DNA of 26,595 nucleotides from a virus, in IMG/VR virus record IMGVR_UViG_3300008267_008070, positions 1-26,595 of that record. One strand, 5' to 3'. The translations under genes were made by a program, and so were the position numbers. Position 1 is the first letter of the stretch. Every line of letters starts with the position of its first letter. Below the pieces are notes generated by a model, which worked only from the letters and a program-made list of their open reading frames with translations, was not told the DNA's origin and made no database searches. Shown here one piece after another: positions 3,901 through 26,595 of this stretch.

Positions 3901-4371
3901 ACTATCAGTACATCCTGTAAATTCAATATCAAATGATATTGCTTTATAAGTGACACATTCTGTCTCACAATTAGCGGTAATTGAACTTAAACATAAATAT
4001 TGTACAGTTGTTGGGTCAACGTTACCTTTAGTTGTGATTGACCAAGATGGTCCTGCATCATATCCCGACAATCCTAAAACTCTAGTTACAAACAATTGAT
4101 TTGATTGTTGTAAATATGATTTAGCGATATACGATGCCTCGTATTTTGGAATTTGAGTATTTATGAACTTCTCAGGTGAAGTACCTCCAAAGAAAGTTGA
4201 GAATTCGTCATAGTTTCGGATAAAAATAGGTTCAAAAGCCGGACCTTTTAAAGTCTCCCCTACGATACCTAATGTAGTTACACCTACACTTTGTGCTACG
4301 AAACTCAAATCAACTTCAGATGTATATACACCTGGTGAAACAAATACTTTACTGTTTGTTGATGTTGCCAT
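991..4371 (-). CDS. Contractile tail sheath protein (T4 gp18-like), greatly enlarged
   Basis: The sheath polymer contracts to drive the tail tube through the host envelope. The N-terminus has the classic sheath start (VFVSPGVYTSEVD, residues 9-21). The C-terminal third has the conserved core: GGFDGWD near 774, the PPTAEVTRNLALTDN region, an IWGNKTLQIRE segment and the INVRRLLLQARK helix near 1020-1035. At 1126 residues it is far longer than T4 gp18 (659), so several hundred residues of extra domains are inserted between the conserved ends. Residues 291-318 of the insert form a Thr tract (T3, T7 and T8 runs separated by short Pro/Cys-containing spacers). The codons in the runs are a mix of ACA, ACT and ACG, so the tract is kept at protein level. 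It is the third gene of the gp14-gp15-gp18 run and ends in its own terminator. The inserted part probably faces outward. Confidence 0.93.
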   Translation of the reverse strand: MATSTNSKVFVSPGVYTSEVDLSFVAQSVGVTTLGIVGETLKGPAFEPIFIRNYDEFSTFFGGTSPEKFINTQIPKYEASYIAKSYLQQSNQLFVTRVLGLSGYDAGPSWSITTKGNVDPTTVQYLCLSSITANCETECVTYKAISFDIEFTGCTDSVTNITFDNTTIPDEILAKLTIPYEQFNGKISTLDSQLKNQAFEVMKDTSTEATSVYYFGPIPELQYTANTSYGYTAKTNVFQVENLNADLINYSAPVNDPWYYALFDNIGGAQYTGSSFYTTVTDLTYIPSGITTTVAPTTTTTTTDPCNPVSTTTTTTTTVEPIFCYTGKLSGVYYEYVAEAYKDFDDLVIATIRSRGIANYSNDSGAVYQVSGLTDVSLNTTGIYSGVTKNPYSTFEIDVTDKDGNNYSFEVSFSNSDSKFISKVLGSSNFSKDRVTVPIFVEERYQSLLNYGWRKGFIRGLNVDLTALPDARQGADPTSIGYYLEKYQSPTSPWVVSELRGNKVYNLFKFTTISDGDSANTEVKISIANISFGNGTFDVLVRDFFDSDSAPVVIEKFTNCSMDMNQNNYIAKKIGTADGEYELKSKYVMVEVNENAPSDALPCGFDGYDVRTYTGSKSPFPIFKTKYDYPGEVVYNPPFGLSSGADDIIKSSGDNIRRTYLGFSDTIGYDVDFTGYKGKQLPLDICTAVSANIWDTKTKGFHMDNRASGITINNTFYEKVYNNDEARFVLSAVTSATTRFYVGSANFSSDPDNESNPYYRLFARKFTFLVTGGFDGWDIYRENRTNTDRFVLGRSGYLRGSCPSVKYPTATGWGAFKQITVGDNTQDWANTDYYAYLLGQRSFSNPEAVNINVFTTPGIDYLNHSDLVESAIDMIENDRADSIYICTTPDYNMFVSTPGDTADMIYPQEAVDNLETTGIDSNYTATYYPWVLTRDSVNNTQIYLPPTAEVTRNLALTDNIAFPWFAAAGYTRGIVNAIKARKKLTQEDRDVLYKGRINPIATFSDVGTVIWGNKTLQIRESALDRINVRRLLLQARKLISAVSVRLLFEQNDQKVRQDFLDAVNPILDSIRRDRGLYDFRVTVSNDTADLDRNQMTGKIYIKPTKSLEFIDITFYITPTGASFENI
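3418..3501 (-). repeat. Thr-rich (mucin-like) low-complexity tract inside the sheath gene
   Basis: These codons give residues 291-318 of the sheath: three runs of Thr (3, 7 and 8 residues) separated by VAP and DPCNPVS. Thr codons are mixed rather than a pure triplet repeat. Similar T6-T7 runs with Pro and Cys occur in the fibre protein encoded at 15144-15869. Confidence 0.85.
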
Positions 4372-8092: not shown

Positions 8093-9631
8093 ATGAACAC
8101 ATTAGAACAAAAAATCAATTTAATTACAGAAAAATTAGAAAAAATTGATATAGAAAAAAACAAAAATTTATTTTTAACTGAAATGAAAAAAATAGGGATT
8201 GAAAAACTTCCCTATTCTTATTCTTCATTAAAACAATTTATTGATGCCGAAACAATGTCTTACCATTATAATAAACATTATAAAGGATACGTTGAGAAAT
8301 TAAATGACGCGTTAAAAAAGTCAAATCAAGGTGATGTTGAATTAGAAGAAATTATTAAAAGTATTAGTAAATACAATAAAACAATCCGTAATAATGCCGG
8401 TGGGGCTTTTAACCACGCGTTGTTTTGGAAAATGTTAACACCGTCACCACAAAAACCATCAGGTAAAGTTTATTCCAAAATTATAAAACAATTTGGTAGT
8501 TTTTCAGAATTCAAAACTAAGTTTGAGGAAATTGCTAAACAAAGATTTGGTTCAGGATGGGTGTGGTTAGTTTTAACTAAACGTAATACGTTAAAAATTG
8601 TTACAACCCCAAACCAAGATAACCCATTAATGAACGTTATTAAAAACGGGGGATATCCTTTATTAGGATTGGATTTATGGGAACACGCCTATTATTTGAA
8701 ATACCGAAACAAAAGAGACGAATATATAAAAAACTTTTGGAAATGTGTTAATTGGAAATTTGTTGAGGAATTATACTCAATGAAAATGAAAACAAAATTA
8801 AATGAAAGTGTAGGTATTAAAACATTATTAAACGAATCAAAAGATTTAGTTTGTACCGGAAAAGAAGTTGAGGAAATTAGAACATTATTTAATACTAATC
8901 CGTCGGTAAAAGATTTATACAAAAATTCAATTAATCAAATATTAAAAGTTGTACTATCCAAACATTATTATGATAGAGGTAAGTACTCACCTGATTCTGC
9001 ATCAGGAATTTATGATTTAGAAAATAATGGTAGGTCTGTTATAAATAAACTTAACACTAATTACAGTTGTTTTTGTCAGTTAAAAAAAGATATTAATGTT
9101 GTTATAACTAAGATGGGTAAATCACCTATTGATTTTACTAATAAATCTAATACCGACCAAGTTAATGAATGTCAAAGATTTGTAAACGCCTTGAATTATT
9201 TTAAAACAAGAATCTTTGATACCTCATCATCAACATTTGAAAAATTAATGAAAATATTAAACACTACAAATAGTTGGGGTGATTTTAGGGAAGTTTATGT
9301 TGTTGAAAAATTAAAAGAGATTTTTGGTCAAGATAAGGTGACAAAAACAGGTGACCTTGGTAGTATGAAAGATATGATTGGTGGTGTTGACTGTGAGGTG
9401 GTAACTAGTTCAGGACTTAAAACGGGACAAATAAAACCATTTCAAAATGTTAAAGACGATGGTAATAATATGACAATATATGGTTCAGGTAGTGTTACAC
9501 CGTATAAAACAGATTGGATTATTTTTATGAATAATCAAAATAAAATCTTGGTATTTAAAAATGACAATACTAAAATCGTTAATGGAAACTTTGTTTTCCC
9601 TAAGAACGATTTAATTTATACTTTGGTTTGA
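8093..9631 (+). CDS. Mn-type superoxide dismutase domain fused to a predicted PD-(D/E)XK nuclease domain
   Basis: Residues 38-228 are a full Fe/Mn superoxide dismutase, which converts superoxide to hydrogen peroxide and oxygen. All four metal ligands are visible: H58 (in SYHYNKHY), H108 (NNAGGAFNHALFW), D194 and H198 (LGLDLWEHAYY). Q175 in NQDNPLM and the GG in the second motif point to the manganese type. A coiled-coil-like lysine/glutamate-rich extension precedes it (1-37). The linker (229-252) contains two LNE motifs at 236-238 and 246-248. The C-terminal 260 residues are unrelated to dismutases. Near 395-450 they show a helix with E400, then GGVDCEV (D433, E435) and QIK (446-448), the pattern of a PD-(D/E)XK endonuclease core. 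The dismutase call is firm, the nuclease call moderate. The fusion is in one uninterrupted frame. No Shine-Dalgarno is visible. The job in infection is unknown; oxidative defence plus DNA cleavage is inferred. Confidence 0.85.
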   Translation: MNTLEQKINLITEKLEKIDIEKNKNLFLTEMKKIGIEKLPYSYSSLKQFIDAETMSYHYNKHYKGYVEKLNDALKKSNQGDVELEEIIKSISKYNKTIRNNAGGAFNHALFWKMLTPSPQKPSGKVYSKIIKQFGSFSEFKTKFEEIAKQRFGSGWVWLVLTKRNTLKIVTTPNQDNPLMNVIKNGGYPLLGLDLWEHAYYLKYRNKRDEYIKNFWKCVNWKFVEELYSMKMKTKLNESVGIKTLLNESKDLVCTGKEVEEIRTLFNTNPSVKDLYKNSINQILKVVLSKHYYDRGKYSPDSASGIYDLENNGRSVINKLNTNYSCFCQLKKDINVVITKMGKSPIDFTNKSNTDQVNECQRFVNALNYFKTRIFDTSSSTFEKLMKILNTTNSWGDFREVYVVEKLKEIFGQDKVTKTGDLGSMKDMIGGVDCEVVTSSGLKTGQIKPFQNVKDDGNNMTIYGSGSVTPYKTDWIIFMNNQNKILVFKNDNTKIVNGNFVFPKNDLIYTLV

Positions 9632-15143: not shown

Positions 15144-15869
15144 TTAAAATTTTAAAAAGAATCCTTCCATTACCGAAATATAATAACCTTCATTTGTAAT
15201 AAATGGGTTATCTAATTGATTTTGGATATTAGGTGTTGGTGTCGGTGTTGTGGTCGGTGTTGGTGTAACTGTATTTGTGGGTGTCATACTTGGTGTAACA
15301 CTTGGTAATGTAGTAGTTGTTGTTGTATAGTTTGGTGATTGTGTTATAATTGGTGATGTGGTTGTCGTTGTTGTATAGTTTGGTGATGGTGTCGGTGTAC
15401 ATACAGGACAACTTGGACAAGGTGTTGTAGTTGTTGTAGTAGTATAAGGACCGTTAACACAACAAGGAAATTCTGACACATAACAACTTTCATATGGTAA
15501 ATCATCAGCAATAAATGATTCTTGAACGTATATGTTTAATTTTTCTCTAATTGGTAGAATTATAGTACCATCATCACTTCTTAATAAGAATTGACCTTCA
15601 TATTTACCAACCCTATTAGTATCTTTAGACGTGAATTGATAATAAATATAATATTCAGGTTCTTGATTTGGGTCTAAAAAAGTTTTTTCCACAAAACCAG
15701 CAGGTCTAGTACTAATTTTTGGAACACCTGTATCTGTATCAACCATTGAAAAGAAAATAGCCGATAACTCAATAGTCTTCATAAAACTATTGTAATCACT
15801 TCTACCGTCTTTAACAACTTGTAATTTTAATAATGGTAATGTCGCATTTTTTTTTATGAAAAAATCCAT
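15144..15869 (-). CDS. Baseplate/fibre-type structural protein with a mucin-like Thr/Pro stalk
   Basis: Residues 1-120 look like one beta-sandwich domain similar to the N-terminal domain of baseplate upper (BppU) proteins: a strand LPLLKLQVVKDG, a segment LSAIFFSMVDTDTG, YYIYYQFTSKDT, then RVGKYEGQFLLRSDDGTIILP and a closing strand LNIYVQESF. Residues 129-157 hold six Cys. Residues 143-213 are almost entirely Thr, Pro and Ser, with T7, T6 and T6 runs and a duplicated SPNYTTTTTT unit. The last 28 residues (NQLDNPFITNEGYYISVMEG) form a short hydrophobic end. The stalk resembles O-glycosylated mucin segments and the Thr runs in the sheath. It is the first gene after the glycosyltransferase operon and has its own TATTTATA element. 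Structural role is likely; the domain name is tentative. Confidence 0.65.
   Translation of the reverse strand: MDFFIKKNATLPLLKLQVVKDGRSDYNSFMKTIELSAIFFSMVDTDTGVPKISTRPAGFVEKTFLDPNQEPEYYIYYQFTSKDTNRVGKYEGQFLLRSDDGTIILPIREKLNIYVQESFIADDLPYESCYVSEFPCCVNGPYTTTTTTTPCPSCPVCTPTPSPNYTTTTTTSPIITQSPNYTTTTTTLPSVTPSMTPTNTVTPTPTTTPTPTPNIQNQLDNPFITNEGYYISVMEGFFLKF
15231..15443 (-). repeat. Thr/Pro-rich low-complexity tract with a duplicated unit
   Basis: This stretch encodes residues 143-213 of the fibre protein. Two copies of a unit encoding SPNYTTTTTT lie about 48 nt apart and differ by few bases. The final part alternates Thr and Pro. Length change by replication slippage is plausible. Confidence 0.8.
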
Positions 15870-15901: not shown

Positions 15902-15933
15902 AAAAAAACAAAGGGGTCGATTTAGACCCCTTT
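15902..15933 (-). terminator. Rho-independent terminator ending the glycosyltransferase operon
   Basis: The arms at 15910-15918 and 15925-15933 form a perfect 9-bp stem (AAAGGGGTC / GACCCCTTT) with a 6-nt loop. On the minus strand it is followed by G and seven T. It abuts the stop codon of the last glycosyltransferase gene. Confidence 0.88.
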
Positions 15934-17636
15934 TAACTTTCTTTTCTTAACCCCCTATCATAATGGTCAAATCTATTATGTTCGGTTGGTGTTAATAGTA
16001 ATAAACCAAAATTTAAATTACCTTTTTTAAGTTCTTGATACATATGACTCATCCACGTTTGTTCGTAAGGATGTGCCCAAGTTGTCTCTAAAAACATTTT
16101 TCTACTACCTGATTTTGAAACAATTTGAGGCCAGTTACAATAATAAATTTCACCTGTAACATACGGTAATTCATCGTATATTTTAATGTTATTATATTTA
16201 ACTTTAGGGGCATTTGGGTCAGTTCCTATTTCGGGTAATTTAGAATAGTCAGGCCAAAATTGTTCTCTAACTGTTTGGGGTACATTATACCAAGACCATT
16301 GTGTACTATTGTCACCAAAAAATTCTGTAAAGTTTAATTTAAGAAAATCAAAATTTTCTCTCTCAACAATATTAACTGATTTTTGATATAAGTTATTAAC
16401 TTTTCTATTGAACCCATTTCTACAAACACCTTCTTGTGGGTAGAAGAACATATCATCTTCAAAGAAAAACATATACTCTAAATCTGATTTTTCAAAATGT
16501 TCAGCAATCCATTGTCTACCACCACAAATACCTAAATTTTCCATTTTAATATGTTCAAACCCATACTTTGTACAAATCTCACTATACTTAGGTGTTGTTG
16601 TTAAATCTGTTGAATTATCTAACAATATCTTTCTTGGTTTATTAATAAAATCAGTGTCATACGCTAACATTGAATCTATCAATGTTTGTAATTGATTTGG
16701 ACTATTAAATCCGATAACATATAAACCAACGTTATTTTTATTTTTAGTGATATAGTTAGTTGACGGACTTATTTGATTATTTGTAGGTAATGACTTGTTA
16801 AGTTTTTCTTTAACTACTATATTATCATTTTTTAAATCTTCAAAAAATTTAGATAATAATCCGTTATTTTCAATTTCAATATAATTTACTAACTCAGGAT
16901 AACGATATATCATAATAGAAAATAAACTTTCTTCAGTACCCATATACCCTTTATTAAGGGTGTCAGTTAACAATGAATAATATATTGAATTGATATTTGT
17001 TATATCATTTTTTGGTCCACCAAAAAATCCACCTCTACCAACAATATTTACATTGTTACCGGCATATTCGTTTAATTTAGTAATATCAAAACCATGAATT
17101 TCGGTATTAGTTTCATAAGGGAATGTAATAAATGTAAATTTACTAATATATTTGTCTATCTTATCTAAAACTTTATCGTGAGTAAAATAACCAGGATGTA
17201 CTGTATTAACAATACCCGCATCTAACCAAAATAAATAATCAGAATTAAATTTATCCATAATTTTAGCATCGTGTAATAAAAACATTTTGCTCATAACCAA
17301 TGGATTATAGAATTCTAAAGTTGCTTGTGTAGATTCTCTTAACCAACCAACTTGAGATAACCAATTTTCATCCGTTCTTATTTTTTGAATTAATTGATTG
17401 TAGTCATTGTTAATAAACCAATCTTTATTTCTTAAAATAAATTGTGTGTTGGAAACATCCCTTTTTGACATTACGAACTCTTGGAGTTTATCGTCCCCAA
17501 AAATTATCATGTTTTCTTCTATATCAAGTAATTGACCAAATTTATCAAGATAATGGGACATTGACCTTGCCCAATCATTTGATAATTTATCTCTACCGAT
17601 ATCCCATAAACCTGTTACAATAGTTGTTTTATTCAT
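15933..17636 (-). CDS. Two-domain glycosyltransferase (HtrL/YibB-like plus GT-A domain)
   Basis: The N-terminal half (about 1-290) resembles the HtrL/YibB family: TIVTGLWDIGRDKLSNDW at the start, a central YLFWLDAGI (D139), GRGGFFGG near 200 and TEESLFSI near 234. These are positions used for nucleotide-sugar and metal binding in GT-A folds. The C-terminal half (about 305-567) is a second GT-A-like domain: VGLYVIGFNSPNQLQTLI, a KILLDNST strand, GGRQW, and MFFFEDDMFFYPQ near 390-400 as an acidic metal site. The protein may therefore add two sugars in succession. It is soluble, with no membrane segments, so it should work in the cytoplasm. It is the last gene of the cassette and ends at a terminator. 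Donors and acceptors cannot be read from the sequence. Confidence 0.72.
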   Translation of the reverse strand: MNKTTIVTGLWDIGRDKLSNDWARSMSHYLDKFGQLLDIEENMIIFGDDKLQEFVMSKRDVSNTQFILRNKDWFINNDYNQLIQKIRTDENWLSQVGWLRESTQATLEFYNPLVMSKMFLLHDAKIMDKFNSDYLFWLDAGIVNTVHPGYFTHDKVLDKIDKYISKFTFITFPYETNTEIHGFDITKLNEYAGNNVNIVGRGGFFGGPKNDITNINSIYYSLLTDTLNKGYMGTEESLFSIMIYRYPELVNYIEIENNGLLSKFFEDLKNDNIVVKEKLNKSLPTNNQISPSTNYITKNKNNVGLYVIGFNSPNQLQTLIDSMLAYDTDFINKPRKILLDNSTDLTTTPKYSEICTKYGFEHIKMENLGICGGRQWIAEHFEKSDLEYMFFFEDDMFFYPQEGVCRNGFNRKVNNLYQKSVNIVERENFDFLKLNFTEFFGDNSTQWSWYNVPQTVREQFWPDYSKLPEIGTDPNAPKVKYNNIKIYDELPYVTGEIYYCNWPQIVSKSGSRKMFLETTWAHPYEQTWMSHMYQELKKGNLNFGLLLLTPTEHNRFDHYDRGLRKES

Positions 17637-17646
17637 ATTATGATAT

Positions 17647-18255
17647 TTAATTTTTTATTTTACACACCCACACTACTTGTGTGAATTCATCTGACATAAA
17701 CGGTGACAAGTTGTTCTCAATACAACAGACCTCAATATCAGAATCTTGAATTTCTAACCAATTCCATATTTTATTAACAATATTATTATTAAAATAATCA
17801 ACATTAGGACCGTAATCGTGAGCCATAATGATGTCACCCGGCTTTAATAACTTTGATAATAAATTAAATTCGTGTTTTTTTTGACCACCATCACATAAAA
17901 CTATTGTTGTACCATCTTGTTGGATGTAGTTTTTAATTTCGGTTTCATTAAGTATACTTGAATATCCGGGACCAAAAATATTTTCAATACGGACCTCTAA
18001 GTTATTATTGGTTTCCATATACTCAAATAATGAATGTTTTTCAGTAACATCATAACTAATAAATTTAGTATTTTCCATTGACATAGAATTTAATAAATTT
18101 CGTAGTAATAACGTCAAACCACCAAAAGCGGTCCCTATTTCTAAAATTTGTTTAGGATTTGTTGTGTTGAATAGTTCTTTAAATATTGGAGATATATTTT
18201 CATGTTGTTGAGTCATTATCCCCTCATACAAAAACCAACCTTTTAATTCTTCCAT
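17647..18255 (-). CDS. SAM-dependent methyltransferase (CmcI/cephalosporin hydroxylase-like)
   Basis: The 202-residue protein has a Rossmann-type methyltransferase core. Motif I is ILEIGTAFGGLTLL (37-50), followed by FISYDVTEK (acidic residue for the ribose of SAM), a strand TTIVLCDGGQKKHEF and IIMAHDYGPN near 141-149. The combination of GTAFGGLTL and a metal-binding-like DGG...AHDYG is typical of the CmcI-like methyltransferases found in polysaccharide gene clusters, which usually methylate sugar hydroxyls. It is next to glycosyltransferases on both sides, so O-methylation of the glycan is the likely role. The 64-nt gap upstream is the only sizeable one in the cassette and contains a TATTTATA element 29 nt before this start, so the last two genes may have an extra promoter. 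Confidence 0.72.
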   Translation of the reverse strand: MEELKGWFLYEGIMTQQHENISPIFKELFNTTNPKQILEIGTAFGGLTLLLRNLLNSMSMENTKFISYDVTEKHSLFEYMETNNNLEVRIENIFGPGYSSILNETEIKNYIQQDGTTIVLCDGGQKKHEFNLLSKLLKPGDIIMAHDYGPNVDYFNNNIVNKIWNWLEIQDSDIEVCCIENNLSPFMSDEFTQVVWVCKIKN

Positions 18256-18284
18256 ATGTTTTTACAAAAAAATTAAAGGATTTA

Positions 18285-18292
18285 TATAAATA
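18285..18292 (-). promoter_or_regulatory. TATTTATA element inside the glycosylation operon
   Basis: On the minus strand the octamer lies 29 nt before the methyltransferase start, in the only gap over 12 nt within the cassette. The spacing is longer than for the other copies, so support is weaker. Confidence 0.25.
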
Positions 18293-18319
18293 GTAAATTA
18301 AAATCTCAAACAGAATGTG

Positions 18320-18994
18320 TTATAAATTACCGTACTTTTCAAAGTATTCATTAATTCTATTAACATCTTTTGTAACAAAATAATTACCGTCAAAAAATTC
18401 AAGATTTTTTTTATGATTTTCTAAATCAATATTTCGTTGTTCATAATGGTCACCTCCGGTTACTACAGGGTGTTCAATATCAATTAAGAAATTAAATTGA
18501 TTTGTGGATGGTAAAAATTGTTTAACTGCATTATAATGACCATCAGTATAAATTACTTCAGGATTAAAACCATCCGATAAATCAATTATTTTATGATGTA
18601 TTATTGGAAAACAACTAGTTGGACTATCATTACTTATTGATACGATATGTTTAACTTTTCTTAAATTTTCAATTAAGTTATGATGATTAAGAATTCTAAT
18701 ATCATCATTTAAAAACGTTATAAAATATGAATTACTAAGTTTATAACCTTGATTTAAAAATGTCGGTAATGATGCGTATCCTGTTAATCTATCGTCAATA
18801 ATAAATTTAATATCAAAATCAAATTTATCCGATAATATTTGATGTGAATTATAATCGTCAGTATCTAATCTAACAACAACCTCAACATCATCCTTATGGT
18901 TTTTAAAAGTTTCTGAAATATTATTTAATGTATTTTTTAACATTTCATATCTACCTCTTGAAGGTAATATAATTGACAATATCTTTTTTTTCAT
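18320..18994 (-). CDS. Family 2-like glycosyltransferase (GT-A fold)
   Basis: The 224-residue enzyme opens with ILSIILPSRGRYEMLKNTL, the standard first strand and helix of GT2 enzymes, then VEVVVRLDTDD (D45, D46 region) and YFITFLNDDIRI near 92-103, which supplies the acidic nucleotide-sugar and metal site. The later part (KIIDLSDGFNPEVIYTDGHY) is less familiar. It is shorter than most GT2 enzymes and has no C-terminal membrane segment, so it probably works on a soluble acceptor. It starts 3 nt after the stop of the preceding gene. The transferred sugar cannot be told. Confidence 0.75.
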   Translation of the reverse strand: MKKKILSIILPSRGRYEMLKNTLNNISETFKNHKDDVEVVVRLDTDDYNSHQILSDKFDFDIKFIIDDRLTGYASLPTFLNQGYKLSNSYFITFLNDDIRILNHHNLIENLRKVKHIVSISNDSPTSCFPIIHHKIIDLSDGFNPEVIYTDGHYNAVKQFLPSTNQFNFLIDIEHPVVTGGDHYEQRNIDLENHKKNLEFFDGNYFVTKDVNRINEYFEKYGNL

Positions 18995-18997
18995 AAT

Positions 18998-19858
18998 TTA
19001 ACTATATGGTGGAAAATACCTTGATTTATTATCAACATTAGTTTGGTTATAAGTATTGGCAAAAAATAAAAAATTTGAGAACCATCCACAAATCCTCATA
19101 ATTTTTTCCGATTTAGATATTGCGTACATTTCAAAAACAACTTCATTCATATAGTTTAATAATTCATCATCACTCAATCCTAATCCTCTAACTCCAGAAT
19201 GGTCTACTAAATAATTAAAATCGTTAAAATAAAGATTATCAAATTTTTCATTTCTCAGAATTTCTTTCATTTTATCAAATTGACTGAAAAATAAAATAGG
19301 TTTATCTTTATGTTCTAAAATAAATTGTTTAATCCAATTTAAATTTTTAGTAATTTCATCATCTTGATTACTTAGTTCAAAAGGTCTATAATGGATAACA
19401 TAAAAATTATCAGGATAATTTGATAATTTAGTTTCACAATATTTAGTAGTTTCTTCAGTTAACATTGATATTTTAGGTAAATCATCTCTAGTTTGCCATA
19501 ATATAAAATTCTCTAAATTATCCACACCATCAACTTTTTCATCAACATAAACATAATAAATTTTTGAATTATCAAGTATTAATTCACAAGTATCTCTTTC
19601 TGGAAAATTACCTAATGCAGGATTAAAACTTCCTGTTGAATCAATTACCAAATCATCAATTAAATCAAAATTTAATATTTTACCAAAAATATCTCTATCA
19701 TACGAATCCATTTTATATGGATTTAAAGTAAAGTCCACATACGCTTTAACAGTATACCCTAATTTTTTTAATTGTTCTTGTGTTACATATATTCTGTATA
19801 ATACATCATAAGTACTTCCAAAACCAGCGTTAAAGTTTGATGTTATATATGCTTTCAT
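18998..19858 (-). CDS. Probable glycosyltransferase, GT-B-like
   Basis: The 286-residue protein starts MKAYITSNFNAGFGSTYDVL, with a Gly-rich loop after the first strand as in GT-B enzymes, followed by YRIYVTQEQLKKLGYTVKAYV. A NFYVIHYRPFE strand around residue 148-158 resembles the H-x-R segment of fucosyltransferase-like folds, and YAISKSEKIMRICGWFSNFLFF near 250-272 resembles a nucleotide-sugar-binding loop where such enzymes have SxFS. Family assignment is tentative. The start is the ATG at 19858, which overlaps the stop of the upstream gene as ATGA; an ATG eight codons earlier would overlap further. The ATGA junction suggests coupled translation. The context of ten other sugar-modifying genes supports a transferase role. 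Confidence 0.55.
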   Translation of the reverse strand: MKAYITSNFNAGFGSTYDVLYRIYVTQEQLKKLGYTVKAYVDFTLNPYKMDSYDRDIFGKILNFDLIDDLVIDSTGSFNPALGNFPERDTCELILDNSKIYYVYVDEKVDGVDNLENFILWQTRDDLPKISMLTEETTKYCETKLSNYPDNFYVIHYRPFELSNQDDEITKNLNWIKQFILEHKDKPILFFSQFDKMKEILRNEKFDNLYFNDFNYLVDHSGVRGLGLSDDELLNYMNEVVFEMYAISKSEKIMRICGWFSNFLFFANTYNQTNVDNKSRYFPPYS

Positions 19859-20781
19859 TCGTAATTTAAAATGTCGTGCCAAACCATATATAATGGTTTA
19901 GGTTTATTACAACTTGGTTCCCAAAGTTCAAAATGATAATGGTCGTGTTCATTTGTTGCGTAAACATCAAATGTAAATGGTATCATAATATCTTTATTCT
20001 CATCGTGAGCAACTTTCATTATAGCCTCCTCAGTACATAGTACTTTTTTATCCATAACTTTTTCACAAGTTTCCCAAAAACTCTTTAAATAAGATTTCAT
20101 TGAATTAGTGTCTCCACCTATCAAACCACCAATAGGGTACGGTCCTAAAAACCCGTAATCTAATATATTATTTTCTTGATAAAAACCATAACCAATTTGC
20201 GGTCCGTTACTTGTTAAACTAGCAACTTTACCGTCACAAATTTTATTTAGTTTGTCAAATATTTTAGTATTTAATAAATTTGTAAAATCGTATTGTGTAA
20301 TTTCTTTATCAGCCCAAACAGGTCTTGTAACACCTATGTGATATTTTTTATCACCATACGGAACACAATACATCCAAGGGAAAATACCTGGGTGTTGTAA
20401 ACCACAATCAATCCAATAAATTCTATCACAATCATCAAGTTCTTGTTCTAACGCTTGGAACTTACCCCACATAATTTCAGGTCCTCTACCACTTAAATCA
20501 GTATCAAAATTAACATCCCTAATTTCACTAATTTGTTTATGATATTTCATATCACTTAATTCAAGTAATTTAATTTCCAAATTAGTTAAATTATTATTTT
20601 CTTTTAAATCTAACAATTCTTGTTCATTTCTTTTATGTGTGTAACATATGATAGGATAATCAATTCCTTTACAATGACTAATTAGAGACCCTTGATATCT
20701 AGTTTTTAAAGATGTTCTCGTACTTTGGAATGGATACCCTTCAGCATCCATCCAATACGCAGTTATAATTTTAGTTTTCAT
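19855..20781 (-). CDS. HtrL/YibB-like glycosyltransferase
   Basis: The 308-residue protein shares with the N-terminal half of the two-domain enzyme at 15933-17636 a start KIITAYWMDAEGYPF, a DRIYWIDCGLQHPG strand (D125), IGGLIGGD around 217-224 and a TEEAIM near 251. In the YibB-type GT-A fold these supply the metal site and the sugar-donor pocket. MWGKFQALEQEL before the DxxG strand corresponds to the helix holding the donor base. The C-terminus is rich in His and aromatic residues (EHDHYHFELWEPS). Sugar and acceptor are unknown. The ending ATGA overlaps the following gene by 4 nt. Confidence 0.65.
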   Translation of the reverse strand: MKTKIITAYWMDAEGYPFQSTRTSLKTRYQGSLISHCKGIDYPIICYTHKRNEQELLDLKENNNLTNLEIKLLELSDMKYHKQISEIRDVNFDTDLSGRGPEIMWGKFQALEQELDDCDRIYWIDCGLQHPGIFPWMYCVPYGDKKYHIGVTRPVWADKEITQYDFTNLLNTKIFDKLNKICDGKVASLTSNGPQIGYGFYQENNILDYGFLGPYPIGGLIGGDTNSMKSYLKSFWETCEKVMDKKVLCTEEAIMKVAHDENKDIMIPFTFDVYATNEHDHYHFELWEPSCNKPKPLYMVWHDILNYE

Positions 20782-20793
20782 ATTAATTTTGTG

Positions 20794-21537
20794 TTAAAAT
20801 CTTGTGTGTAAATCACCCGTTTTAGTGTAGAAATAAAAACAATCACTCATTAGTCTAAGCATTCCGTCATAAGAATATTTCATATCGGCTTCTAAAATTG
20901 AAATACCAATCTCAAATCCGTCAGGGTAATTTCTAATGTTATTAGCAATACTATACCATAAAAATTGTTCCCATCTTTGAACAAAGAATCTAAATTTCGC
21001 GTTATTTTTAAATACTAAAATTTGTTCATTCACACAGTGAGCGTCGTCCCATTTAGTATGTTCAAACACATCATAATCAAATAATTTTTCTCTAAAAAAA
21101 CTTTGGTCAGGATTTTGTTTATGTGTTCCAATTGGTGCTGGACGTTCAAATAGACAATCTAAATTGTTTTGTTCCATATGGTCAAACATATTTAATATTT
21201 TTTGCTCGTCAAAACCTTTCCACACACCCCAATCACCATCAGTGAATATAATATAATCGTGATGTACATCAGGATTTTGTTTCTCAAAATCAATTATGTG
21301 TTTAAGGGATAAACATTTTAAATTTAAATGAAAATCAAAACCACCACCAGTACAATTTAATGAATATGGTTTTATTATATTTGTGTGAATTCTATCACCT
21401 TGATTTAACAACTCTTCATTAGTTGTTGTAATAAACAAATTACAATGTTGAGTTTTTTCTCTTAATTCATTGTAAAATTCTTTAGTTTTTGATTCATACG
21501 GTTCATTTACCGCTAACGTAGTAAAACAATACTTCAT
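20794..21537 (-). CDS. Glycosyltransferase with a DGD metal site (GT-A)
   Basis: The 247-residue protein has the organisation of a GT-A transferase. It starts KYCFTTLAVNEPYESKTKEF, has a strand HCNLFITTTN, then DYIIFTDGDWGVWKG, in which D100-G-D102 is the classical DxD site for the metal and nucleotide sugar. HCVNEQILVFKNNAKFRFF (about 167-185) is the acceptor-side helix commonly found in this type. DFHLNLKCLSLKHI resembles the FxxKxxxL donor helix of GT8 and YibB-like enzymes. No transmembrane segment is visible. It begins 3 nt after the preceding stop, within the same operon. Family-level assignment is not certain. Confidence 0.68.
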   Translation of the reverse strand: MKYCFTTLAVNEPYESKTKEFYNELREKTQHCNLFITTTNEELLNQGDRIHTNIIKPYSLNCTGGGFDFHLNLKCLSLKHIIDFEKQNPDVHHDYIIFTDGDWGVWKGFDEQKILNMFDHMEQNNLDCLFERPAPIGTHKQNPDQSFFREKLFDYDVFEHTKWDDAHCVNEQILVFKNNAKFRFFVQRWEQFLWYSIANNIRNYPDGFEIGISILEADMKYSYDGMLRLMSDCFYFYTKTGDLHTRF

Positions 21538-21540
21538 ACT

Positions 21541-22221
21541 TTATAAATTTAATTCATTTAAAAATCTTAAACACTCCTCACCACTAGGAACTGTTGGTTT
21601 ATCATTTTCATCTAATTGCATACCGATGAAAAATTTTTTATCGTCTCTAGGGATGTAAGTTTCTCTTTTATCAAACCCAAAATATGTTATTGAATTAGGG
21701 TTAATATTTTGAATATATTGATATAAGATTTCTTGGTCGTCACCCCATCTTAATTCCGACTTAGATATAAAGTCGTTCATATGTGTCTCAAAGTCAACTA
21801 TTTTACCTTTAATACCAAATAAACCACTTGGTACAGGAGCATGCCAAGGATGGTCTCGTATTATAAAATACTCAGTACCTTCATCTAACCATCTATTAAT
21901 ATAATCAACTTCTCTTACCGATACTCTACTATCCAAATCTCTTGATAACGTAATATTATTATCAAAAAATGATAGATACCTCCAAAAATAAGGAAATGAT
22001 AATGAAGGTTTACCGCCCACAACAACATCAGAGACATCAATAACTGTTGCACCTTTTTTTGATAATTCATCAATTTTGTCTAAATTAGTTAAATTTGGGT
22101 GGTAATAAATAACTGTTTTCCAATCAGGTAATAATAAGTTGTTAACTTCAATATTTTTTTCGGCACCAACGTAATACTTATCTTCATACCCAAATAAACT
22201 ATAAGATATTATTTTTTCCAT
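21541..22221 (-). CDS. Glycosyltransferase with RDLDSR motif
   Basis: This 226-residue protein follows a pattern seen in sugar-transfer enzymes of phage and capsular clusters. It begins ISYSLFGYEDKYYVGAEKNI, then a LPDWKTVIYYH strand, FWRYLSFF, and NITLSRDLDSRVSVREV (R94, D95, D97, R99), the acidic donor-binding site. DHPWHAPVPSGLFGIKG follows. The close fit of 'S-L-F-G...KY..G...N' with 'W....Y' and 'RDLDSR' gives good confidence in a GT-A-type fold, though not in the sugar. It starts 2 nt after the preceding gene ends, so translation is probably coupled. Confidence 0.68.
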   Translation of the reverse strand: MEKIISYSLFGYEDKYYVGAEKNIEVNNLLLPDWKTVIYYHPNLTNLDKIDELSKKGATVIDVSDVVVGGKPSLSFPYFWRYLSFFDNNITLSRDLDSRVSVREVDYINRWLDEGTEYFIIRDHPWHAPVPSGLFGIKGKIVDFETHMNDFISKSELRWGDDQEILYQYIQNINPNSITYFGFDKRETYIPRDDKKFFIGMQLDENDKPTVPSGEECLRFLNELNL

Positions 22222-22223
22222 AC

Positions 22224-23222
22224 TTAATCGTTAATAATTTTATCTAAAAATTCTAATATATAATCTTCATTAAAATATATAGGTAATTTATTTTCTTTGA
22301 AAATAGGTTCTTCAAAATAAGATTTTAATTTATTATTATCATTGTAAACCTCATCTAAATAATTTACTAATTCGTCAATAGATTCAAAGTCGTGAGCATT
22401 AATAAATGACTTAGGATTAAAACCTTCTTCTTCTATAAATTTATTACCGTAAAAAATAGGTATTGAGTTTGATGCGTATGCGTGAATTATTTTTTCTTGT
22501 GTTAAATAGTCAGTGTTAGTATATTGATATGCAATATTGAAAACAGAATCTGAAAAAAAGTTAATTTTATCTCTATATGTTAAACCATCAATTTTACCCA
22601 TATAATCAGGGTTAGAGTAGTTATGGTATTTATGTGGATTTAAACCTTCTTCATCTTTTATTGTTGCCCTCCAAGGACCTGACGATTTTATCCAATGTTT
22701 TTCCATTATTTTATCAAATAAAATTTCTCTATCAGGATTATGACTTGCTTGAACAATACTACAAAAATGTTTTTTATTTTTGATAATTTCATCAAAATTT
22801 CTGGTATCTGTTAACCAACCAAATTCTGTGTCAAACATACCACCCTCATTATGTAAAACAAAGGCGTCAAGTACTAAAGTTGGAAATCTTAAATATCTTT
22901 CGTGATTAATATGTTCATAACCTAAACAATAATAATTGTTCCCTTTATTTAAATGTGAATTGAAGTCCGGTCTCGCTTCACCACTTAGAAATATTTTCTT
23001 AACCGAATCATCATACTCGTGAATACCTTTTACAATATCATTTGTGTAGTAATCAAGTTCATTCTCCCTATAAAATTGATTGGTATAAAATACTAAATCA
23101 GGGTTTTTAGAATCTATTACTACATTATATTTTTTTGATAAAATTTTATGGAAAAAATTTAACCAAGAAAAATTACCAACACCTGGGAAACTTGCTCTTG
23201 AAATTTTTATTGTTGTTTTCAT
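22224..23222 (-). CDS. Alpha-1,3-fucosyltransferase-like protein (GT10)
   Basis: GT10 enzymes transfer fucose from GDP-fucose to GlcNAc or glucose residues. The C-terminal half holds the family's donor-binding region: NIAYQYTNTDYLTQEKII (about 228-245, usual form FENS..DYVTEK), then AYASNSIPIFYGN and FNPKSFINAHDFES (about 268-281, usual form PP.SFI...DF). SGPWRATIKDEEGLNPHKYH before it corresponds to the variable linker. The N-terminal domain (VGNFSWLNFFHKIL and KNPDLVFYTN) fits the acceptor domain. ENS is replaced by QYTN, a modest change. Length 332 is normal for bacterial members. It needs GDP-fucose, for which no synthesis gene is visible here, so host supply or genes elsewhere are needed. 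Confidence 0.85.
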   Translation of the reverse strand: MKTTIKISRASFPGVGNFSWLNFFHKILSKKYNVVIDSKNPDLVFYTNQFYRENELDYYTNDIVKGIHEYDDSVKKIFLSGEARPDFNSHLNKGNNYYCLGYEHINHERYLRFPTLVLDAFVLHNEGGMFDTEFGWLTDTRNFDEIIKNKKHFCSIVQASHNPDREILFDKIMEKHWIKSSGPWRATIKDEEGLNPHKYHNYSNPDYMGKIDGLTYRDKINFFSDSVFNIAYQYTNTDYLTQEKIIHAYASNSIPIFYGNKFIEEEGFNPKSFINAHDFESIDELVNYLDEVYNDNNKLKSYFEEPIFKENKLPIYFNEDYILEFLDKIIND

Positions 23223-23233
23223 TATTTGTATTT

Positions 23234-24076
23234 TTATTTTTTATAAATGTTATCTATATTAATAAACTCATATCTTGGTTCATCATCAACCTTTAAATTT
23301 ACGTATTGACCAAAAACTTCATTATTTGAATTAGGTCCGTCATTTGTTAACGGCCAATATATTTTTTCGGCATTAGATAACAAACACGCCCAAAATGAAA
23401 ATGTACCTTGAGCCGCGATTATTTTATTAAATGAAGTTATTTCTGAAAAAATATCAAGAATTGACCCATCAATTAATTGAGGGTTATATTTCTTTAATTT
23501 TTCTAGTAAACTTGAATGTTGGTATGTGTGGTCTAAACTAACATACAAATTTTCAAAATTTTCTTTTTCTAAAATATCTAAATAATATTCATCAGGTAAA
23601 ACAAACCGAGCATCGTCCCTACTATTTCTTAACATAATAACAATATCGTTATTATTTCTTTTTTCTTTAACTAAAGAACTATAATAACCTTTAATACGTT
23701 CCTTATGTGGTTTAACATAATCGTACTTGGTAAAGTAACCCAAAACCATTATTTTATGATTTGGGTAATTTTTAACAAATTCATCAACACTTCCAAAATG
23801 ATATAAATCGCTATCATCCATAGTTTTAACAGGTGTATCAAATGAATTTTTACCTTTAAAACCTTTAAACGGAAATACTTGATTTACGTAATTACCTACA
23901 GATTGTTCTTCTCTTCGGATTAAAGCGTTTTCAGGTACAATAAAGTCAGACTCAATTAATTCTGCGGCGACTCTGCTAATACCATATATGAATAATTTGT
24001 TTCCTAAATTTTTTCTAAACGATGAAAAATGACCACCTAATAAACTATCGGTATATATATCGTATAACTCAACCAT
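23234..24076 (-). CDS. Fucosyltransferase-like protein (GT11-type)
   Basis: The 280-residue protein resembles alpha-1,2-fucosyltransferases. The clearest element is KIIAAQGTFSFWACLLS (about 218-234), matching the family segment ending in STFSWWGAYL, next to AEKIYWPL. The DIVIMLRNSRDD stretch (residues about 142-153) sits where GT11 enzymes carry HxRRGDY, but it reads LRNSRDD, so the key His-Arg-Arg-Gly-Asp motif is degenerate. Then DEYYLDIL and ENLYVSLDHTYQHSSLLEKL follow the usual order. It may use another donor. Placed between the GT10 gene and a methyltransferase gene, it fits glycan capping. Confidence in the family is moderate. Confidence 0.55.
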   Translation of the reverse strand: MVELYDIYTDSLLGGHFSSFRKNLGNKLFIYGISRVAAELIESDFIVPENALIRREEQSVGNYVNQVFPFKGFKGKNSFDTPVKTMDDSDLYHFGSVDEFVKNYPNHKIMVLGYFTKYDYVKPHKERIKGYYSSLVKEKRNNNDIVIMLRNSRDDARFVLPDEYYLDILEKENFENLYVSLDHTYQHSSLLEKLKKYNPQLIDGSILDIFSEITSFNKIIAAQGTFSFWACLLSNAEKIYWPLTNDGPNSNNEVFGQYVNLKVDDEPRYEFINIDNIYKK

Positions 24077-24082
24077 AATTTT

Positions 24083-24643
24083 TTAGTTTAAAAAAACAAC
24101 ACCAGTACCTGAAGAATGTCCAATGTTTGTAATATTTAATTTATCTTCATTAATGTTATTCCAAAATGTTATCATATCATCATTTAAAAAGATATCATCT
24201 AAAAGTAATACACCTTTATAATTGATGTTTTTTAAATGATTTAAAAATTCTAACTCAAAATCACCATTATGGAATGTGTCCAACAAAATTATTTTAGACT
24301 CTAATAAAATATTATCATACTTACCATTAATAACGTTATCAACAATAAATTCAATATTCTTAGGTCTTTCTTTTAATTGTAATTCATCAAATAAATTAAA
24401 AGAATACACTTTATTAGTTTCATTAGTACTTAATGCTAATGCTGATGAACCTTTTAATGTTCCGACATCTACAAATGTTGAATTATTAAAATATCTGGAT
24501 AAGTAAGTTAATAATCTGTAATGTTCTTCTGATGATTTTCTTTTAAAATAATCTTGATATTCTTCATTATCTATTAATGTATGAAGACTCATATCAAAAA
24601 TATCTAAAGTTTGATTTTCTAAATTAACAAATATTTCTTTCAT
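24083..24643 (-). CDS. SAM-dependent methyltransferase
   Basis: The 186-residue product has methyltransferase motif I STFVDVGTLKGSSALAL (55-71), with D59 and G61 for SAM, then VYSFNLFDEL, a NIEFIVDNV strand, IILLDTFHNGDFELEF with an Asp at the active-site position, and GVLLLDDIFLNDD. It therefore belongs to the class I fold, of the type often found in lipopolysaccharide and capsule loci (Methyltransf_24-like). I chose the ATG at 24643 because it is 4 nt after the upstream stop; the longer in-frame start would overlap the GlcNAc-transferase gene by 128 nt. The substrate is probably a sugar, from context. Confidence 0.7.
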   Translation of the reverse strand: MKEIFVNLENQTLDIFDMSLHTLIDNEEYQDYFKRKSSEEHYRLLTYLSRYFNNSTFVDVGTLKGSSALALSTNETNKVYSFNLFDELQLKERPKNIEFIVDNVINGKYDNILLESKIILLDTFHNGDFELEFLNHLKNINYKGVLLLDDIFLNDDMITFWNNINEDKLNITNIGHSSGTGVVFLN

Positions 24644-24647
24644 ATTT

Positions 24648-25898
24648 TTAATATAAATTTCCTGTGATTCTGTCACACCATCCTTTTGATGCTGAATAAG
24701 GCCAAACCACCCAATATTTTGGTTTATGTGTCGTTTGGAACTCTCTCCATACTTTACAATAACCGTCAGGGTCATTTTTCATTCTATTAATTTCATTAAT
24801 GTCGGCATCTTGTCTATGAATAGTTTCATCATTTTCATCGTGGAATGCTACCACCCAAAATTCATAATCAGTTTCAGGAACTGAATCATAACTAACATCA
24901 ATACAATGTTTAAAGATTGTTGCAAAACTTGATTCCCATTCTTCCTCCGTTTCGTAAATTGTTGGGTTTGGTGGGTAATGTTTATCTAAGGTATATTGTT
25001 GTACCGCTCTTCTTGAAAATCTTAAACCTGAATAAATTTCATAGTCTTTTAAAGTTCTTTCAGTACCAAAACCATATGGATTAAATTCATCAGAAATTTG
25101 TTCACCGTCCATACCAAATAGTTTTCTATTTTTTTCGTGTGAAACATTATTTTTTGTTACCCAATCTTTATCATCATCCCATTGTTTTGTTCTTCCTTTT
25201 CTAGTATATTCGTGCCATACTAATGTTTTGTGAGGGTGGAATAAATCATATCCAAATGTATATGCTCTAGCGGCAATTGAAATCTCCTCACCGTGAAAAT
25301 AAAATTCAGGGTCGTGTTGTACTTCATTACTAAACTCACCAACAGTAAATGCGAAATGAGCCGAATAAAATCTTGATGGTACAGGTTCTTTTAAATTTTC
25401 CCACCCTTGTATTGTTTCAGGTAAAAAGAATACCGCACCTTCAGGGATAAATCTATCAAAGACCATTCTCCAAGGTTCTTTAACTCTTTCAGCCGGGTCA
25501 TTTTCAGGATTAAATGACGATACATAACCCGTCAATAATGGTTTTTTAAAACCTTTCTTTTGTAATTGTTTAATCATTTTAATAAACTCATCATCCCAAT
25601 TTTTCTCAAATCTCATATGTGAGTCTATTTGCATTGTATATTCCTCACCATCATATAATTGTTGTACTTGATTTCTAGCCCAACAAACTCCTTTAGATTC
25701 TGTGTATAAAACATCTAATACTCTAAAACGTTTATCGTCTTTGAATTCGTCTAACACATCAAACTTGTCTTCAGGGTGATATTGACGACAAATACCAATT
25801 CGTAAATTTTTAGGTCTTTTGGCATTTTCAATCATTGATTTAATTGTGGGAATTAGTTCAGGGTCTCTATAAGACGCAATTTGAATAAAAATTTTCAT
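24648..25898 (-). CDS. GlcNAc-transferase-like glycosyltransferase (GT60-type)
   Basis: The 416-residue enzyme matches the GlcNAc glycosyltransferase family (PF11397-like), whose studied members add GlcNAc to protein acceptors such as hydroxyproline in Skp1. Its start is IFIQIASYRDPELIPTIKSM, followed by NLRIGICRQY, VLYTESKGVCWARNQVQQLY and YTMQIDSHMRFEKNWD, where D92-S-H94 is the metal motif (DSH in place of DxD). PEFYFHGEEISIAARAYTFG and FHPHKTLVWHEY later are also family features. It is the first gene of the cassette, so it may add the initiating sugar to a protein. I chose the ATG at 25898; a GTG three codons earlier is possible. No Shine-Dalgarno is visible. No prolyl hydroxylase gene is seen in the window. 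Confidence 0.85.
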   Translation of the reverse strand: MKIFIQIASYRDPELIPTIKSMIENAKRPKNLRIGICRQYHPEDKFDVLDEFKDDKRFRVLDVLYTESKGVCWARNQVQQLYDGEEYTMQIDSHMRFEKNWDDEFIKMIKQLQKKGFKKPLLTGYVSSFNPENDPAERVKEPWRMVFDRFIPEGAVFFLPETIQGWENLKEPVPSRFYSAHFAFTVGEFSNEVQHDPEFYFHGEEISIAARAYTFGYDLFHPHKTLVWHEYTRKGRTKQWDDDKDWVTKNNVSHEKNRKLFGMDGEQISDEFNPYGFGTERTLKDYEIYSGLRFSRRAVQQYTLDKHYPPNPTIYETEEEWESSFATIFKHCIDVSYDSVPETDYEFWVVAFHDENDETIHRQDADINEINRMKNDPDGYCKVWREFQTTHKPKYWVVWPYSASKGWCDRITGNLY

Positions 25899-25956: not shown

Positions 25957-26595
25957 TTAGATTCCAAAAACATTAAAGAATCTACTACTTTCGGTGTTAT
26001 AATTTGATAAAACTTCGGCGGGTGTTAGTGCGCGATTATACAGTCTAAAGATTGATTGAGTACCTAAAAAGTCAGAGGCATCACCTGTAAAACAACCGAT
26101 ATCAAGTTGTAAATTATTTTGTTGTACTAAAAATGTTTTAGTTAAATCATATCCGGCATTATTACCATTAATATATGTATAATAACCTGAACTTGTCCAT
26201 ACTGCAACTAAATGAACCCATTGGTTAACTGATGTTGAACCTGTACTTGTATAGATGTCGGCTTGTAATGTTGGTTTAGAACCTAACATCCATAGATGAC
26301 CTCCGGAGTCTAGCCTCATTCTATAACCTTGATTACTATTTTTACTAAAAATTTCTAAATCATTTAACGCGGTTGGTTTAATCCATACCTCAACAGATAC
26401 TTCATTAGTGATTGCCGAGAGTGAAGGACTATTTGGTATTCTAACTTTTTCATTACCATAAAATCCAAAACCACCCATTTTATCAGGTAAAAATGTTGGT
26501 GCTGCGGGAACTAAATTAGAATAAAAAACACCATCGTTATTATTATCTGTAATGTCATTCCAATTAGTACCCGAACCCGGCCAAGAAAGAGGTGA
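25957..26595 (-). CDS. LamG (concanavalin-like) domain protein, partial at its N-terminus
   Basis: The frame stays open to the right edge, so the true start is outside the window; 212 residues are visible. The visible part is one laminin-G/concanavalin-like beta-sandwich: WPGSGTNWNDIT near its beginning, then VSVEVWIKP (about 67-74), QWVHLVAVW, YYTYINGNNAG, LDIGCFTG and the closing FRLYNRALTPAEVLSNYN (about 183-200). These motifs are typical of LamG modules in phage virion proteins, where they bind sugar or protein ligands. The remaining protein could contain further LamG repeats or a fibre shaft. It precedes the glycosyltransferase cassette by 58 nt on the same strand, so it may be co-transcribed with it. 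No terminator was recognised in the gap. Confidence 0.8.
   Translation of the reverse strand, partial: SPLSWPGSGTNWNDITDNNNDGVFYSNLVPAAPTFLPDKMGGFGFYGNEKVRIPNSPSLSAITNEVSVEVWIKPTALNDLEIFSKNSNQGYRMRLDSGGHLWMLGSKPTLQADIYTSTGSTSVNQWVHLVAVWTSSGYYTYINGNNAGYDLTKTFLVQQNNLQLDIGCFTGDASDFLGTQSIFRLYNRALTPAEVLSNYNTESSRFFNVFGI

Follow-up and report, generated by a model that had tools for sequence, protein, structure and literature searches.

What does a phage decorate with an operon made up largely of glycosyltransferases? The question is raised by a 26,595-nt stretch of viral DNA (IMG/VR record IMGVR_UViG_3300008267_008070; the whole of it is called the window here), on the minus strand of which eleven open reading frames (ORFs), A to K, were all confirmed at 15933-25898. 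We consider it probable that the operon represents one allele of an exchangeable cassette that assembles glycans on virion proteins by cytoplasmic, lipid-free O-glycosylation. At the level of sequence, the operon is a constant frame, formed by gene A, gene K and the neighbouring p241, around middle genes that are replaced as a block. The three constant members are the following.

24648-25898, minus strand: gene A, constant first gene and proposed initiator, a GT60 / PF11397 polypeptide N-acetylglucosamine (GlcNAc)-transferase-like protein (PF11397 profile, DSH motif)
15933-17636, minus strand: gene K, constant last gene, with tandem GT-A domains, HtrL_YibB at approximately residues 1-270 and GT2/GnT-I-like at 300-560 (profile and predicted structure)
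15144-15869, minus strand: p241, constant neighbour of K, a baseplate-upper-protein-like domain (residues 1-120) with a Thr/Pro-rich, mucin-like tail, candidate acceptor (predicted fold, composition)

Replacement of the middle genes among relatives

Eighty related loci were fetched with gene A, a procedure that makes A universal among them, and loci seeded with p241 or with the polymerase were used as a check on this ascertainment. K was present in 77 of the 80 A-seeded loci, and these 77 display 46 cassette layouts of approximately 1 to 9 kb. Identity to the window is 75-89% for A, 48-73% for K in most loci, and 49-87% for p241, which in 34 of 42 layouts follows K at a distance of 16-62 nt. 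The p241-seeded loci contained A in 49/49 cases (at least 9 kb upstream available) and K in 66/70 (at least 2.5 kb). The polymerase-seeded set, with a full A in 20 of the 37 loci having 9 kb upstream, is less telling, since many loci end before A. The cassette ORFs, 189 with the window genes included, fall into 52 clusters, 20 of which have a single member. The earlier note on this DNA had proposed looking for the same cassette in related phages; this search recovered the A...K frame, with middle genes that differ from one relative to another.

The replacement is most evident between close relatives. L057 and L058 are 99.8% identical in A and 98.4% in K, with 0/4 cassette genes in common. L015 and L051 (A 98.8%, K 92.3%, polymerase 98.5%) likewise share no cassette gene, nor do L019 and L033 (A 95.4%, p241 98.9%, polymerase 99.2%), in which K is only 63% identical. 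In the pairs L015/L051 and L057/L058, DNA homology is lost within about 10 nt of the A stop codon and returns within a few nt of the K start. Separately, a long internally repetitive stretch was seen upstream of A in both L057 (1-3400) and L058 (700-4400).

Hypervariable islands near tail genes are common in T4-like phages (PMC7029224), and unrelated sugar genes might simply have piled up in such an island without forming a joint pathway. We regard such ordinary plasticity as improbable: where cassette contents can be recognised, they are glycosyltransferases, methyltransferases or enzymes that modify sugars, the genes are co-oriented (180/181 on the operon strand) and bounded by one gene pair, and the same A/K pair recurs in other lineages and in bacteria.

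The constant end genes

Gene A matches PF11397 with an E value of 5.8e-70 (236.9 bits, cut-off 21), and the match covers the catalytic part. Its D92-S93-H94 is invariant in 10 sequences, including those of the isolated jumbo phages XacN1 and RAS14, and we take this DSH to be the DxH-type metal motif of GT60. Known GT60 members transfer GlcNAc onto Thr or hydroxyproline of proteins. The GT60-type activity of Trypanosoma cruzi, encoded by TcOGNT-2, initiates mucin glycans on Thr; it was assayed on the Thr8 peptide KPPTTTTTTTTKPP with UDP-GlcNAc, and no dolichol donors were involved (PMC3769586).

Gene K matches PF09612 (HtrL_YibB; E value 4.9e-20, 72.7 bits, cut-off 24.1). Its score of 71.1 bits against the NCBIfam YibB equivalog is below the cut-off of 264.9, and K is thus a domain relative rather than YibB itself. 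The AlphaFold2 model (pLDDT 84) contains alpha/beta domains at residues 1-270 and 300-560; fold searches employed both full-length K and residues 300-560. Foldseek matches include LH3, K4CP and LARGE1; VIA gives Z values of 13-16. The full-length alignment to LH3 extends over 346-368 residues, though with an rmsd of 16-17, while residues 300-560 align to GnT-I with Z 15. The nearest folds to that of modelled K belong to enzymes lengthening protein-linked sugars (LH3, LARGE1, POMGNT1, GnT-I) and to a chondroitin polymerase. When profiles of A, K, G and E/F were run against PDB sequences, no meaningful match resulted. Some relatives (L010, L014, L043, L063, L074 and others) encode K forms of 780-837 aa with an optional N-terminal methyltransferase-type extension of approximately 230 residues, which offers an alternative to a free-standing methyltransferase such as J.

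The middle genes and the layout of the operon

Between the constant ends, the window carries nine genes and, directly behind K, a terminator.

24083-24643, minus strand: gene B, likely S-adenosylmethionine (SAM) methyltransferase, variable slot (SAM-binding-like motif VDVGTLKGSS only)
23234-24076, minus strand: gene C, GT11-like glycosyltransferase, variable slot (phrog_2644, 5.9e-5; GT11 weak, 0.014)
22224-23222, minus strand: gene D, GT10 fucosyltransferase-type, variable slot (PF00852, 6.8e-11)
21541-22221, minus strand: gene E, probable DxD-containing glycosyltransferase, variable slot (D/D/R invariant in alignment)
20794-21537, minus strand: gene F, probable glycosyltransferase with invariant DxD, variable slot (alignment; relative in the XacN1 cassette)
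19855-20781, minus strand: gene G, YibB-like domain related to the N-domain of K (hhalign 98.7%, E value 2.5e-16; relatives in the XacN1 and RAS14 cassettes)
18998-19858, minus strand: gene H, variable slot, corrected start, without family match
18320-18994, minus strand: gene I, GT2 glycosyltransferase (PF00535, 5.8e-6), a singleton among the cassettes compared
17647-18255, minus strand: gene J, CmcI/rhamnosyl O-methyltransferase-type (PF04989, 2.7e-5; weak, 24.4 bits against a cut-off of 23.2)
15910-15933, minus strand: strong intrinsic terminator, a 9-bp GGGGTC stem (15933-15910) with a T tract behind it (GTTTTTTT), immediately after the K stop codon

The earlier note had counted six recognisable and two likely glycosyltransferases. 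The total is about right, but only A, D, I and K exceed curated cut-offs, and C, E, F and G are probable transferases by means weaker than curated models. Its two SAM methyltransferases correspond to J, whose CmcI-type match is just above the cut-off, and to B, which has the motif and no Pfam family above cut-off. Among the 80 relatives, C and D are each found in 4, E in 8, F in 11, G in 17, H in 3 and J in 19; in ordered cassettes, J lies at the K end or close to it.

The tightly spaced eleven-gene operon, the intrinsic terminator and the absence of membrane segments, all described in the earlier note, were borne out once two starts had been amended. The start of B was moved from 24775 to the likely ATG at 24643, which gives 186 aa (the L070 homologue has 185). 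The first 44 codons of the longer reading are an alternative frame of the 3' end of A, and this overlap accounts for its partial 'conservation'. The start of H was moved from the TTG at 19882 to the likely ATG at 19858. With these corrections, neighbouring genes are separated by 2-12 nt or overlap by 4 nt, the sole exception being I/J (64 nt). No membrane-like segments were detected in the eleven operon proteins or in the 189 cassette ORFs including relatives. No Shine-Dalgarno motifs were found upstream of the operon genes, where the sequence is A/T-rich. Such A/T-rich upstream regions without Shine-Dalgarno motifs are usual in Bacteroidota. Near-identical DNA was not encountered among isolated phages, and the phage collection held no close relative.

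The A...K frame in isolated jumbo phages and in bacteria

In XacN1 the gene order is A - carbamoyltransferase - G-like - F-like - K, and in RAS14 it is A - carbamoyltransferase - G-like - K. The A homologues of XacN1, RAS14 and CM1 share 44-48% identity with gene A, and in all three phages the K homologue is full length. Contigs related to XacN1 keep A...K while the content between varies. Proteomic analysis of XacN1 indicated at least two glycoproteins, and phage transferases were suggested to be responsible, ORF334 being named (PMC5852040). ORF334 is the homologue of gene A.

GT60 has a scattered distribution among bacteria. A few bacterial genomes carry the A+K pair, namely those of Jiulongibacter, Saprospiraceae, Gemmatimonas, Halieaceae and others. 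The Jiulongibacter set (A - carbamoyltransferase - methyltransferase/K) is adjoined by a TPTPTP-rich protein with a signal resembling those of the twin-arginine (Tat) pathway, and five other loci have similar neighbours. ORFs combining a twin-arginine with Thr/Ser/Pro-rich sequence were found within 2.5 kb of A at 6 loci, as against 1 farther away (p = 0.012, a guide only). Tat exports proteins already folded in the cytoplasm, so such neighbours fit modification by soluble enzymes before export. Across 395 genomes of the phylum of Jiulongibacter, K was found only in Jiulongibacter itself; the pair is therefore rare in cells, and the Tat link is based on few loci. In the Gemmatimonas locus L247 (9155-9874), the Thr-rich Tat-type ORF beside A has an N-terminal stretch which, read by eye, resembles a PqqD-like domain.

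These findings bear on two other possible acceptors. The main rival holds that the enzymes remodel lipopolysaccharide (LPS), capsule or surface proteins of the host during infection, blocking superinfection or sparing progeny, with the middle genes tracking the diversity of host surfaces. HtrL/YibB of Escherichia coli adjoins LPS-core genes, and certain cassette members match GT25 'LPS biosynthesis'. The glycosyltransferases of the pelagimyophage variable island were interpreted in this sense (PMC7029224). The cassette families include GT2, 10, 11, 25, 34, PLOD-type and a sugar-binding DXD type of glycosyltransferase, together with FkbM and other methyltransferases, carbamoyltransferase, aminotransferase, epimerase, and nucleotidyl- and acetyltransferases. 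None of the 25 commonest is a flippase, polymerase, oligosaccharyltransferase (OTase) or lipid-carrier enzyme, and the cassettes contain no membrane protein. Furthermore, the initiating enzyme belongs to a polypeptide-transferase family, the frame is linked to p241 and kept in phages of different host phyla, and the bacterial pair adjoins Tat-signal Thr/Pro-rich proteins. Host-surface remodelling is, for these reasons, doubtful.

The other alternative, that oligosaccharides are built on hydroxymethylated pyrimidines of phage DNA, would accord with a weak match of the second domain of K to the beta-glucosyl-HMC-alpha-glucosyltransferase family (0.0018) and with phage glycosyltransferases reported to hypermodify DNA (Pyle et al. 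2024, as cited in PMC12619734). We give it very little credence. A thymidylate-synthase-family gene with the dUMP-type Asn is present in XacN1, in RAS14 and in the four largest relatives examined; this residue by itself is compatible with a dUMP hydroxymethylase. No dCMP-hydroxymethylase-type synthase was seen in the same genomes, the window itself being a fragment. A search for TET/JBP in 12 relatives gave no match, and no positive control gave one either. XacN1 DNA is cut by the ordinary restriction enzymes BssHII, NaeI and SpeI (PMC5852040). Base glycosylation is thus unsupported, and DNA is an unlikely acceptor. The thymidylate synthases of the large relatives L082-L085 contain internal insertions, and the L085 gene is split into two ORFs.

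Candidate acceptors

If virion proteins are the acceptors, p241 is the first candidate. Its residues 1-120 are predicted with moderate confidence to form a beta-sandwich resembling the upper baseplate proteins of 80alpha, NF5 and TP901-1 and, to the same degree, antibody domains; nothing convincing was found for p241 in Pfam or PHROGs. Thr/Ser/Pro-rich stretches occur in the tail of 29 of 42 homologues. In the L016 and L051 homologues, the tail is replaced by what reads by eye as a papain-type cysteine peptidase-like domain. Two further candidates lie in the window.

991-4371, minus strand: tail sheath, second candidate acceptor, whose poly-Thr segment (residues 297-318) occupies a swap site (profile and comparison with relatives)
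25957-26478, minus strand: LamG-domain fragment upstream of A, probable C-terminal portion of a large virion-type protein, candidate acceptor (PF13385, 1.3e-24; frame open to the window end)

The exchange site of the sheath (residues ~290-320) contains poly-Thr/Pro in some relatives and an insert of 165-243 residues with ordinary composition in others. Since the Thr runs are encoded by mixed codons, they are not simple DNA repeats. The LamG homologues of relatives lie within proteins of 2641-3214 aa that end just ahead of A. Thr/Ser/Pro-rich ORFs make up 76/145 of those in the 1.5-kb cassette flanks versus 22/209 beyond (p = 4e-18, likewise a guide).

Elsewhere in the window, the ORF at 8093-9631 (plus strand) encodes an Fe/Mn superoxide dismutase (residues ~36-226) fused to a C-terminal part of approximately 280 aa with a weak ABC-3C MC4 match (0.00038). 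It lies beside an SNF2 helicase and occurs in 16 relatives.

Proposed pathway

In the pathway that we favour, A would act in the host cytoplasm and start the glycan on Thr (or Ser/hydroxyproline) residues of phage proteins, the first sugar being probably alpha-GlcNAc donated by UDP-GlcNAc. The products of C, D, E, F, G, I and perhaps H would extend this sugar and set the type of glycan, B and J could finish it by O-methylation, and K would contribute a conserved portion (the core sugars that come next, or a cap). No lipid carrier, flippase or OTase would be used. The best candidates for the acceptor would be the Thr/Pro-rich p241 tail, the poly-Thr stretch in the sheath and the large protein encoded ahead of A. 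The glycan might protect against host factors, grazers or competitors, as a shield or a decoy, or it might take part in host binding. Because A and K are near-constant and the genes between them are not, homologous recombination in both could exchange the entire middle, and close relatives may therefore differ in their surface glycans in a serotype-like manner. More tentatively, and with somewhat less than even confidence, we propose that A and K, shared with bacteria that would use both on Tat-exported mucin-like proteins, are fixed recombination ends by which glycan pathways are exchanged, so that near-identical virions would bear different O-glycans on Thr/Pro-rich tail proteins.

Several observations weigh against the proposed pathway. 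K is absent from the relatives L488, L490, L528 and L529, and we know of no established function for HtrL/YibB, the family of its N-domain. The match of the p241 N-domain to the baseplate chains 6v8i, 9m8o and 4v96 (Z 8.3-8.7) is tied with antibody domains, and 13 of 42 p241 homologues have no Thr/Pro-rich tract. Of 20 A-carrying contigs searched over their full length, only 9 encode seven consecutive Thr, and among all viral contigs A accompanied 2/120 poly-Thr loci versus 1/117 control-pattern loci; a strict tie between A and poly-Thr was accordingly rejected. The criteria of the Tat-neighbour and flank tests were chosen with the data already in view, and ORFs that are neighbours or relatives are not independent of one another, hence the reading of both p-values as guides only. 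The main text of the XacN1 paper names neither the identities of the glycoproteins nor the method (PMC5852040). Because some relatives are without the tracts and poly-Thr is not tied to A, Thr/Pro-rich sequences are the best candidates, neither proven nor necessary as acceptors.

The overall reading of the earlier note receives partial support. That a glycan is built directly on a soluble acceptor is consistent with the lack of membrane segments, the absence of a flippase or polymerase from the families listed, the GT60 initiator and the lipid-free T. cruzi activity. That the acceptor is a phage protein draws indirect support from the adjacency of p241, the Thr/Pro-rich flanking ORFs and the XacN1 glycoproteins, and for the phage of the window it is an inference only. 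If the proposal is true, some large environmental phages have sugar coats that can be switched, comparable to bacterial capsule types and made through a lipid-free cytoplasmic pathway of mucin type. Many jumbo-phage glycosyltransferases, usually ascribed to modification of DNA or LPS, would gain a testable role, and the proposal can be tested at once in isolated phages with the A...K frame. In bacteria, the A+K pair would then serve to mark cytoplasmic O-glycosylation.

Comparison with known systems

Virus-directed virion glycosylation is already known from mycobacteriophages and giant viruses (PMC10117803), as are variable glycosyltransferase islands (PMC7029224). Exact-term searches of the open-access literature returned no description of the constant-frame/replaceable-middle layout, of the GT60+K pair or of the Tat mucin-like link, an absence that is weak evidence.

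Gene A shares PF11397 with the GT60 alpha-GlcNAc-transferases (T. cruzi OGNT, Dictyostelium Gnt1/Gnt2), and the T. cruzi substrates are Thr-rich mucins (PMC3769586). Here, in contrast, the enzyme is predicted, donor and acceptor included, from a phage operon in which K is its constant partner and the extending enzymes are replaceable. The known cases of mycobacteriophage glycosylation involve few transferases. Like the present phage, the mycobacteriophages (Freeman et al. 2023, as cited in PMC12619734) and XacN1 (PMC5852040) encode glycosyltransferases, and glycans are found on their phage proteins. The mycobacteriophage glycans are at the C-termini of capsid and tail-tube subunits, whereas here up to approximately 10 swappable genes lie between fixed ends. 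The fibril glycan clusters of the Megavirinae are also virus-encoded, with 6-33 glycosylation genes and clade-specific particle glycans, but these are eukaryotic viruses with their own nucleotide-sugar synthesis, and no GT60/K frame is reported there (PMC10117803).

Bacterial flagella and Ser/Thr-rich adhesins are similarly O-glycosylated in the cytoplasm without an OTase, by stepwise addition from nucleotide sugars to Ser/Thr-rich proteins (PMC12871550). The difference is the GT60+K combination, which in bacteria lies beside Tat-signal proteins. Known systems of the OTase-independent type use other initiating enzymes.

The moraphages, to whose lineage the phage of the window possibly belongs, are large aquatic phages with presumed Bacteroidota hosts and four putative glycosyltransferase orthogroups in their core; the available portion of that report does not describe the frame, the swapping or the acceptor (PMC12619734). 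Finally, the host-recognition islands of pelagimyophages also place a variable glycosyltransferase region by the tail genes, but there a mixed island diverges gradually (PMC7029224), whereas here replacement is complete between two constant transferases.

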